Source of the DNA: an uncultured Clostridiaceae bacterium
Lineage (GTDB): Bacteria > Bacillota > Clostridia > TANB77 > CAG-465
NCBI GenBank assembly: GCA_947381905.1
Contig: CANCXL010000001.1
Coordinates: forward strand, 1-41,969
Length of the DNA: 41,969 bases
Reading direction: 5' to 3'
Below the pieces are notes generated by a model. It worked only from the letters and a program-made list of their open reading frames with translations. It was not told where the DNA came from and made no database searches. Positions 33,422-36,441 of this stretch are shown here, piece by piece (the stretch's first letter is position 1; each line of letters starts with the position of its first letter). The translations under genes were made by a program, and so were the position numbers.

Positions 33422-33760
33422 TTAGTTATTAGTATAAAGATCTAATATTAAAGATGCATCAACTGAATTAATTACACCATTATCATCCATATCAGCAGCT
33501 TCTACATATTCAGCATCACTGTTATTATATAGATCTAGTACCATAGCGGCATCAACTGAGTTTATAACTCCATCTCCATTAAGATCTCCTTTTAGAAGTA
33601 TGTTATCTGGAGTTATTTCAGGATGAGCAGAAATTTTAATATCTGGATCTTCTTCTAAAATAGCGCCTTGAAATGTTTTGGCATTAATCACATTCATACT
33701 AAAAACTATTGAAAATACTGCGATTATCATTAAAAAGCCTAATATTTTTTTATTTCTCAT
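33422..33760 (-). CDS. Secreted dockerin-only protein
   Basis: A 112-residue protein that consists of a signal peptide (KKILGFLMIIAVFSIVFSMNVINA, cleaved after about residue 27), a 30-residue linker and a type I dockerin. The dockerin has the two calcium-binding repeats GDLNGDGVINSVDAAMVLDLY and ADMDDNGVINSVDASLILDLY. Dockerins bind cohesins on scaffoldins, as in cellulosomes, but no enzyme or carbohydrate-binding domain is attached here, which is unusual. AGGAGG lies 8 bases before the ATG. A second dockerin protein follows upstream on the same strand. Confidence 0.88.
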   Translation of the reverse strand: MRNKKILGFLMIIAVFSIVFSMNVINAKTFQGAILEEDPDIKISAHPEITPDNILLKGDLNGDGVINSVDAAMVLDLYNNSDAEYVEAADMDDNGVINSVDASLILDLYTNN

Positions 33761-33830
33761 AACTTAACCTCCTGGTTAAATGATAACATAATTTAGTAAA
33801 AATAATCAATAAAAATTACAATAAATAAAA

Positions 33831-33865
33831 AATATAGGAAGATATGTTACAAATCTTCCCATATT
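33831..33865 (-). terminator. Terminator of the second dockerin gene
   Basis: A stem of 7 bp (33837-33843 with 33853-33859), one mismatch and 5 further pairs, followed on the minus strand by T residues. Confidence 0.7.
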
Positions 33866-33868
33866 TTG

Positions 33869-34774
33869 TTATATACCGCTCATATATATGTCTAAAATTA
33901 AAGCAGCGTCAGTTGAATTAATTATATTATTTTGGTCTATATCGCCAATTTCTATATCAATATTTGTAGCGTTATTGTTATTATATAAATCAAGTGCTAT
34001 AGCAGCGTCATTTGAATTTATAACACCATCTCTATTTAAATCTCCCTTTTTATATTTAAAATTTCTAGGATATAGTATAATTTCTATATCTAAATCATTT
34101 TTGTCAATAACAAATGGTACAGTTACCATTTCATAATCTGAAAGTTCTTCTGGAGTTGCAACTATAGTAAAGTAATACACTTCATTTAATTCAAATAAGT
34201 CTAAAGGAATATAGAAAATTCCTCTTTCATCTGTTTGAGCTTGTATAAGTGCATTATCCTCTTTGTCAGTTATTTTATATATTGACGAAGGAACACAGTT
34301 GTTATCATATGTTTTAAGGTTAGGAACAATTATTGGTGGCCCTATAATTGCATCTTGTTCATAGTAGAAGTGAATACTAGTATGAGTAGTTGCTTCTAGT
34401 GTAAAACTATAATATTTATCTTCTATAAGTTCAAATGGTGAATCTATTATATTTATATAATAGGTACCAGCCGGAAAATCGCCAAGATGAGAAACTCCTG
34501 ACGAATCTGTTCTAAGATAATCTATTAAATTTCCATATTCATCAGTAATTTCAAAAAAAACATCAGATGCATTTTTGTCGGATAAATTATCTAGTATATA
34601 AAGAGGAAACGAAAGTGTTATAGCAGGAGTTCCAATTGCTCCAGTATGTATTTGTATAGATTTATTATATATATTATTATGTGTATATACAGCTGCATTT
34701 ACAAAAATTGTATTAAACATAATTGTAAATATTGATAGTAATAATAAACAATATATGATTTTTATATTTTTCAT
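33869..34774 (-). CDS. Secreted dockerin protein with prealbumin-like domains
   Basis: A 301-residue secreted protein. A signal peptide (IIYCLLLLSIFTIMFNTIFVNA) is followed by two strand-rich modules that look like SpaA/Cna-B-type folds: DEYGNLIDYLRTDSSGVSHLGDFPAG near residue 85 with YYINIIDS, and DNALIQAQTDERGIFYIPL near 185. The C-terminal dockerin has calcium repeats GDLNRDGVINSNDAAIALDLY and GDIDQNNIINSTDAALILDIY. Start 34774 follows AGGAGG; the ORF upstream to 34831 has no ribosome binding site. No catalytic domain is seen, so it is probably a structural or adhesion component of a dockerin/cohesin assembly. Confidence 0.85.
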   Translation of the reverse strand: MKNIKIIYCLLLLSIFTIMFNTIFVNAAVYTHNNIYNKSIQIHTGAIGTPAITLSFPLYILDNLSDKNASDVFFEITDEYGNLIDYLRTDSSGVSHLGDFPAGTYYINIIDSPFELIEDKYYSFTLEATTHTSIHFYYEQDAIIGPPIIVPNLKTYDNNCVPSSIYKITDKEDNALIQAQTDERGIFYIPLDLFELNEVYYFTIVATPEELSDYEMVTVPFVIDKNDLDIEIILYPRNFKYKKGDLNRDGVINSNDAAIALDLYNNNNATNIDIEIGDIDQNNIINSTDAALILDIYMSGI

Positions 34775-34919
34775 ATTATAGCCTCCTAAAAAAATAGTAA
34801 CATAATTAGAAAAAATATACAAATAAATCATATGTTAATTTGAAAAATTCGGTTATATATAATATAATTCTATATATATTAACTAAAATACACATAATAA
34901 TATATAGGGAGTGAATGCT

Positions 34920-35360: not shown

Positions 35361-35386
35361 AATAAAGCCTTTATAGGCTTTATTTT
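35359..35386. terminator. Bidirectional terminator between the GNAT gene and the HAD gene
   Basis: A 12-bp stem (35359-35370 with 35375-35386) with a 4-base loop. It contains the stop codon of the minus-strand gene. Confidence 0.85.
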
Positions 35387-35954
35387 TGTATAATATTTAA
35401 TATGTTTTCTAAACCATTTAAATCTTTTATTTTTATATGAGAAGTTTTTTGATTTAATTCTCTATCAATAAGAATTGGAATGAATCCAAATTCTTTGGAG
35501 ATATCTACTAAATCTAATCTATCATCAATAAAATAATTTTCATCGTTTATTGATATATCTTCTAATGCAATTTCAAACAACACTTTATCTGATTTTTTAA
35601 ATCCTAGTTCTGAAGAGATATACACTTTTTTAAATAACTGTAATAAATCATTTTCTTTTAGAATTCTGTATGTAGAAGGCCAAGCATCAGATATAATATA
35701 TAGATTATATTTTAAAGATAAATCTCTTAATTTTTTCTTTACCTCTGGATAGAATATGATTTTATCGTTATTGTATACATTATCATAAGCTAGAGCTTGA
35801 ATTATTTCAGATGATATGTTTTTATAGTTCATGCACTTTAAAACATTTAAGTAAAACTTGCAGAACATATCAAATTCTTCATCTTCTGTATTTATTTCTC
35901 TTTCATCTAGTAAATGAAAGCTATTTTTTTATATACTAGGAAAAATCGATTTTG

Positions 35955-35972
35955 TGTCGAAAATCGCGACGA
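35955..35972 (+). promoter_or_regulatory. Spo0A-box-like motif (copy 3) inside the insertion
   Basis: TGTCGAAAATCGCGACGA holds an exact TGTCGAA box and a second, near-exact CGACGAA box 12 bases on. It matches copies 1 and 2 except at three positions. It lies 55 bases before the -10 box (59 in the other copies) and in the loop of a small dyad CGATTTT/AAAATCG. Confidence 0.6.
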
Positions 35973-36009
35973 AAAGTAGCTGAAAATAAAGAAAAATTCG
36001 TTCTTAGTA

Positions 36010-36015
36010 TATAAT
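36010..36015 (+). promoter_or_regulatory. -10 box for the structured RNA
   Basis: A perfect TATAAT (with TAGTA before it) and no recognisable -35 box, as in activator-dependent promoters; transcription would start near 36022. Confidence 0.55.
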
Positions 36016-36021
36016 GTAAAC

Positions 36022-36216
36022 ATCAGCTGATAATGCTATATCTAGATAGTAATCCAAACCTAGAAATAGCGATGGATAATGGTCGAGAACAACGACCAAT
36101 TAAGAAAAGGGTGGCCTAAATATTTAGGTGGAAACTTAAATACAATATCTTAATAAAAAATCCAAAACTATGAAATAGTTTTGGAGCGTAACAAAGTTAT
36201 TTGTTACTTTTGTTCT
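36022..36216 (+). ncRNA. Candidate Spo0A-linked structured RNA (about 195 nt), possibly raiA-like
   Basis: No ORF is present, but several helices can form: 36036-36046 with 36060-36070 (10 pairs around one A-A mismatch); 36081-36085 with 36093-36097; 36100-36104 with 36135-36139, enclosing the hairpin CCTAA/TTAGG at 36115-36128; an 11-bp perfect hairpin at 36161-36185; and a terminator stem at 36188-36207. A 4-base loop contact (ATCC 36052 with GGAT 36074) could make a pseudoknot. The size and clostridial setting resemble the raiA motif, but I cannot verify the family without a covariance model. Confidence 0.6.
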
Positions 36217-36217
36217 T
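36188..36217 (+). terminator. Terminator of the structured RNA
   Basis: GTAACAAA (36188-36195) pairs exactly with TTTGTTAC (36200-36207), followed by TTTTGTTCTT. Confidence 0.65.
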
Positions 36218-36441
36218 GCATCTAGTACTATATCTAAATCAATATATCCTAAAATATTAAAAAAATTTGGAGTGATAAACCAGTTCTCAGTTAATGGGTG
36301 ATGGAGTGTGCTTCCTACATCAAAAAATAAATTTATTTTCATAATATACCTCGATATAAAAGTTTTATCATAAAATTATATATTAGCACAATAAATATGT
36401 ATAAATATATTTCATGTTAGTATAATTTATTGAGGTGAAAT

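Follow-up and report, generated by a model that had tools for sequence, protein, structure and literature searches.

A 285-bp insert in a HAD hydrolase gene of an uncultured Clostridiaceae bacterium is, taken as a whole, very probably best explained as a non-autonomous, PATE-like derivative of an IS200/IS605-type tnpB element, the insertion of which inactivated the gene. It lies in a stretch of 41,969 nt, here called the window. An earlier note, made from the sequence alone, had described a self-contained regulatory-RNA cassette that moved into a gene; the insert is indeed a small mobile non-coding element with RNA-forming sequence, but the self-contained cassette gives way to a tnpB-deleted IS200/IS605-type element. 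What appeared to be a mystery RNA cassette thus becomes a well-defined tnpB-deleted transposon with a conserved, predicted guide-RNA scaffold.

The two minus-strand ORFs flanking the insert are two parts of one HAD gene, as had been proposed. Excision exactly at the element ends yields an in-frame protein of 225 aa, the length of its orthologs, reading ...LDIVLDAKKNSFHLLDERE... across the join. The comparison with related genomes that the earlier note suggested turned up intact HAD alleles: uninterrupted genes were found in nine relatives, and 9 of 9 align through the site with no gaps and no stops. Since these nine orthologs are gap-free, there is no target duplication at the HAD site, in agreement with the exact excision, and the empty allele should read AAGCTATTTTTTTTTGCATC, likewise without duplication. 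The boundaries had previously been placed at two 14-bp repeats, TCTTTCATCTAGTA (35899-35912) and TCTTGCATCTAGTA (36214-36227). These near-identical repeats do exist (13/14 identical, spacing 315) and the DNA between them is non-coding; however, joining the ORFs at the repeats, which was thought to restore a normal-length HAD protein, gives 215 aa and loses 10 residues present in every ortholog, and the insert is 285 bp long rather than 315 bp. The first two bases of the right-hand repeat (36214-36215) are element sequence, and the left repeat largely coincides with an arm plus the loop of the hairpin that precedes the T7 tract. Nine direct-repeat families of similar or greater length, the 14-bp pair included, are present in 1.2 kb, the other eight being mostly longer and less exact; the 14-bp repeat is no feature beyond chance. 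The nine gap-free orthologs rule it out as a target duplication or recombination site.

To compare the insert with its relatives, the interval was searched by BLAST against its own genome; near-full matches came up at three further places and partial ones at several contig ends. The core therefore occurs at other sites with different flanks, the second check that had been proposed. At one place in the same genome (L016) and one in a sister species (L021), the left and right parts lie ~1.26 kb apart, with a 424-aa ORF between them. The protein encoded at L016 carries OrfB_IS605 (PF01385) and Cas12f1-like_TNB (PF07282) domains and is TnpB, with an intact reading frame in this genome. In the alignment of copies, the left end starts with [AG]TATACTAGG or close variants, right behind a T run, and the right end is TTTTGTTC; the window's left and right ends are 92% and 95% identical to those of L016, respectively. 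Everything from the last 24 codons of tnpB through the right end is kept in the window insert. One deletion junction is common to five copies (C1, which is the window copy, C2, two on C9, and C55, which is cut by a contig end), and the flanks of these five are unrelated; therefore, the deleted form itself has moved. Its occurrence at several loci bears out the small non-autonomous element that had been considered as one route. The insert contains neither terminal inverted repeats nor a transposase, as observed earlier. This is normal for the IS200/IS605-type family, which lacks both terminal inverted repeats and target duplications (PMC7290912); the transposase would act in trans.

Features of the insert, the disrupted HAD gene and the full-length copies (window positions unless a locus is named)
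Feature	Position	Strand	Basis or remark
Complete 285-bp non-autonomous tnpB-type IS200/IS605 (PATE-like) element	35931..36215	+	Alignment to sister copies C2, C9 (two), C55 and full-length L016/L021
Left end	35931..35980	+	Conserved in all copies; source of Spo0A-like motif
Imperfect left-end hairpin CGATTTT-GTGTCG-AAAATCG	35947-35966	+	
-10 box TATAAT, former tnpB promoter	36010..36015	+	Alignment
Linker marking the shared internal deletion, ATCAGCTGATAATGCTATATCTA	36022..36044	+	Junction shared by five copies at separate loci
tnpB 3' end, final 24 codons plus stop	36045..36119	+	tblastn against 424-aa TnpB, residues 401-424
Predicted omega-RNA (reRNA) scaffold	36069..36215	+	Folding, compensatory changes, covariance model
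Stem A	36081-36085/36093-36097	+	
Loop GAACAA, complementary to UUGUUC	36087-36092; 36210-36215	+	
Stem C	36099-36105/36148-36154	+	
Two scaffold hairpins	36161-36185; 36188-36207	+	
ORF, 68 aa	36136-36342	-	HAD gene part
ORF, 162 aa	35380-35868	-	HAD gene part
HAD gene 5' part	36216..36342	-	DVGST motif
HAD gene 3' part	35380..35930	-	PF13419
Terminator-like hairpin of HAD gene, CTTTCAT-CTAGTAA-ATGAAAG, 7-bp	35900..35920	+	Precedes T7
T7 tract, target motif and presumed TAM	35924..35930	+	Immediately left of element
HAD sequence in guide position, TTGCATCTAGTACTATATC...	36216..36235	+	Directly 3' of right end
tnpB, full-length copies	L016:630-1904; L021:426-1700		

With the element defined, the regulatory signals that had been read in the insert find other explanations. 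The Spo0A-like motif, taken for a regulatory site, belongs to the conserved left end in all copies, those that carry tnpB included. The -10 box is present, but as a remnant of the tnpB promoter rather than the promoter of an RNA cassette of its own: four sister copies keep TTTACA-N17-TATAAT, whereas a 13-bp deletion in the window copy takes out the -35 box TTTACA. The window copy may thus be transcriptionally weak. The supposed terminator did not hold up, the sole terminator-like match in the insert being on the minus strand and the plus-strand hairpin being part of the RNA scaffold. The prediction of a foldable RNA, by contrast, was correct. The right end folds far above shuffles both as RNA (z -5.57) and as DNA (z -7.36); the left-end hairpin of the window copy is a weak fold, no better than shuffles (z -0.51). 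Among the four full mini-copies, 14/168 columns are variable in the right part vs 28/116 in the left (odds ratio 3.5, p 0.0003); left ends evolve faster in full elements too.

Conserved RNA structure spans the 3' end of tnpB and the right end and stops at the element boundary. Across 21 distinct copies, which come from several genera, stem A is confined to tnpB codons and stem C joins codons ahead of the stop to the 3' untranslated region; compensatory changes are seen in both stems. The covariation score of 0.098 was reached in 0/500 shuffles, and when the stems were slid, pairing dropped to 38-56%. The complementarity between GAACAA and UUGUUC is invariant and hence without covariation support; it suggests a pseudoknot adjoining the guide. 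The two remaining hairpins are strongly stable; their sequence differs among relatives, with pairing kept in single-sequence folds. A search of Rfam with the insert returned no family at gathering and no credible match up to E 5. Judged by these features of sequence and predicted fold, the foldable part of the insert is a putative omega-RNA scaffold with flanking DNA in the guide position, and a trans-acting guide function is plausible. By analogy with the system described in PMC8612924, the adjoining HAD sequence would serve as the guide; it has no further genomic match with <2 mismatches.

A T-run of 4-8 adjoins the left of every left end examined. Among 29 distinct left junctions (those of loci L016-L091 and of the window), 18 have a hairpin and T-run directly before the junction, compared with an expectation of 2.9 derived from length-matched T-runs in the window. 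Because 12/50 intergenic T6+ runs in the window have such a hairpin, intergenic survival accounts for part, but probably not all, of this excess. These data show that the family strongly prefers sites with a hairpin and T-run resembling an intrinsic terminator. At the HAD site, the T7 tract is presumed to be the TAM, by analogy with ISDra2 (PMC8612924).

The TnpB of the full-length copy has the first and last RuvC Asp (SIDLG and NADIN), and the canonical RuvC-II Glu is replaced by Gly (IGDL, aligned to the Glu of Cas12f). In the TnpBs of L016 and L021 the zinc-finger Cys is absent and a displaced Glu is present (SEKYTSGVS), with six residues between this Glu and the first zinc-finger Cys position, here Ser. 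By motif, this is the alternative spacing of the RuvC-II Glu described for other TnpBs (PMC10711439). Given the RuvC Asp residues and the alternative Glu, nuclease activity is plausible. No intact tnpA was found in the 97%-complete draft assembly of this genome. Its only Y1 match is a 41-residue transposase fragment in an internally deleted IS200-like remnant (L040:1321-1720, G000:C5), which belongs to an IS200-like element other than the window family. Among 20 Y1 loci checked in relatives, none has matching ends, and the transposase that moved the mini-element was found neither there nor in the draft genome.

A covariance model of the omega-RNA core, R1, was run on 28 genomes of the genus and found 36 copies in 13 of them. 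Full-length tnpB reading frames number seven, spread over six genomes, and one of the seven contains a stop; the ratio of 36 to 7 is approximate, because repeats of this kind interrupt draft assemblies. Deletion types of independent origin that keep the left end and the omega-RNA core are present in G000, G021 (at least two), G015, G038 and G050/G052, and several independent derivatives in different genera retain the last 24-70 tnpB codons. The core is partly lost in derivatives of G007/G019 (L060/L061 among the partial-core loci) and at L054 and L026. A scan of genome contigs gave one near relative, an uncultured Clostridia MAG, and little else. Two mini-elements of G021, both on one 9.5-kb contig, share a captured internal stretch of ~190 bp (L052, G021:C49) that by eye resembles an IS3-type orfA fragment. 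At another locus (L069:254-1468, G003:C62), the tnpB promoter is separated from the first ~20 bp of a left end by an IS91-like transposase gene (PF04986, PF14319). This arrangement was met once and could be a nested insertion or a composite element; we take it as a nested insertion and rejected the IS91-like transposase as a partner of the family.

These observations provide the basis for a model of how the insert arose and spread. An internal deletion took nearly all of tnpB. What stayed is the left end, the promoter region of tnpB and 170 bp on the right, the last of these comprising the transposition hairpin and the predicted TnpB omega-RNA scaffold. The mini-element would then have spread via transposition in trans by a Y1 TnpA. 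One copy inserted behind the hairpin and T7 inside the HAD gene, inactivating it with no target duplication. That a trans-mobilised mini-element broke the HAD gene is established or close to it. Past this point the model becomes more speculative. The right end could encode an omega-RNA with adjacent HAD sequence as its guide, and the TnpB of a full-length copy could cut an empty HAD allele, which offers both the T-tract TAM and the target; such cutting would favour retention of the element. Transposon retention driven by TnpB/IscB was reportedly described in a 2023 Nature paper. It is possible, if short of probable, that the element has been retained partly through omega-RNA and TnpB in trans. 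We speculate, tentatively, that mini-elements are selected as hitchhikers consisting of a guide RNA only, their omega-RNAs programming TnpB made elsewhere to destroy empty sites. If true, one nuclease gene would protect a fleet of non-coding elements.

The chief alternative contests only the guide-RNA step. The insert may be a dead-end decay product that moved in trans in the past and whose right-end RNA is functionless. On this view the right part is conserved only because TnpA needs the DNA ends and because the copies descend from a recent common ancestor; the demands of transposition may by themselves account for the conserved right end. We give this reading a little less than an even chance. 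Loss of the -35 box in the window copy, absence of an intact tnpA from the assembly and partial loss of the omega-RNA core at L060/L061, L054 and L026 are all consistent with it. On the other hand, independent derivatives in different genera keep terminal tnpB codons that TnpA should not need, compensatory changes occur in stems outside the terminal hairpin, and the four sister copies have kept their promoter.

Three further explanations concern the nature of the insert itself. The TGTCGAA-like motif, the -10 box and the foldable DNA are all present, as would befit a Spo0A-controlled regulatory-RNA cassette moved by recombination between the 14-bp repeats, but the motif is left-end sequence also found in full-length tnpB elements, no Rfam family matches, and the HAD orthologs refute both the repeats and the boundaries. 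Moreover, the repeats enclose 10 genuine HAD residues in addition to the element, which also disposes of short-repeat recombination as a route; we regard this explanation as very improbable. It is equally hard to credit that the insert is an IStron, or some other intron that splices itself out and keeps the HAD message whole. In IStrons, IS605-type ends do occur together with a group I intron (PMC4227781), but no group I or II intron was detected in Rfam even up to E 5, the left part is just ~115 bp, and the element is antisense to HAD. Several family members lie at contig ends, which might point to a chimeric assembly joined at a repeat; however, a false join would give unrelated flanks, whereas the two HAD halves stand on either side of the element in the right order and join exactly and in frame, making an assembly error most unlikely.

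The mini-element reading also has precedents. Both PATE-like anatomy, as described in the relevant parts of PMC7290912, and TnpB right-end RNAs (PMC8612924) were already known; what stands out here is unusually clear repeated formation and spread. The PATE-like IS605 element of Halanaerobium hydrogeniformans, as presented in those parts of PMC7290912, has the same anatomy: a short left end with a hairpin, the last 58 nt of tnpB, a complete 160-nt right end and no tnpA. It is described there in one copy, whereas we find five with one deletion and further deletion types in relatives, and guide-RNA content, considered here, goes unmentioned in the same parts. As in the ISDra2 TnpB-reRNA system (PMC8612924), the RNA would derive from the tnpB 3' end and right end, with flanking DNA as guide and a TAM on the left. 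In contrast to ISDra2, the family has a T-tract in place of TTGAT, a different scaffold sequence and a TnpB without the canonical RuvC-II Glu and zinc-finger Cys, and the window copy is without tnpB altogether. The displaced Glu six residues upstream of the zinc-finger motif is shared with the alternative-Glu TnpBs (PMC10711439), which differ in having DPG where this protein has DLG and Cys where its first Cys position is Ser. The IS605-type ends are also those of IStrons (PMC4227781), unlike which the intron is absent. This IS605-type family shows a strong preference for terminator-like sites together with RNA structure that overlaps tnpB codons, and it offers a natural test of TnpB action in trans on guide-RNA-only elements, in that the scaffold is kept in several independent deletion types and partly lost in a few.

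Elsewhere in the window (33422-34831, minus strand), two neighbouring secreted-looking proteins have, by eye, ends with dockerin-like repeats (GDLNGDGVINSVDAA...).
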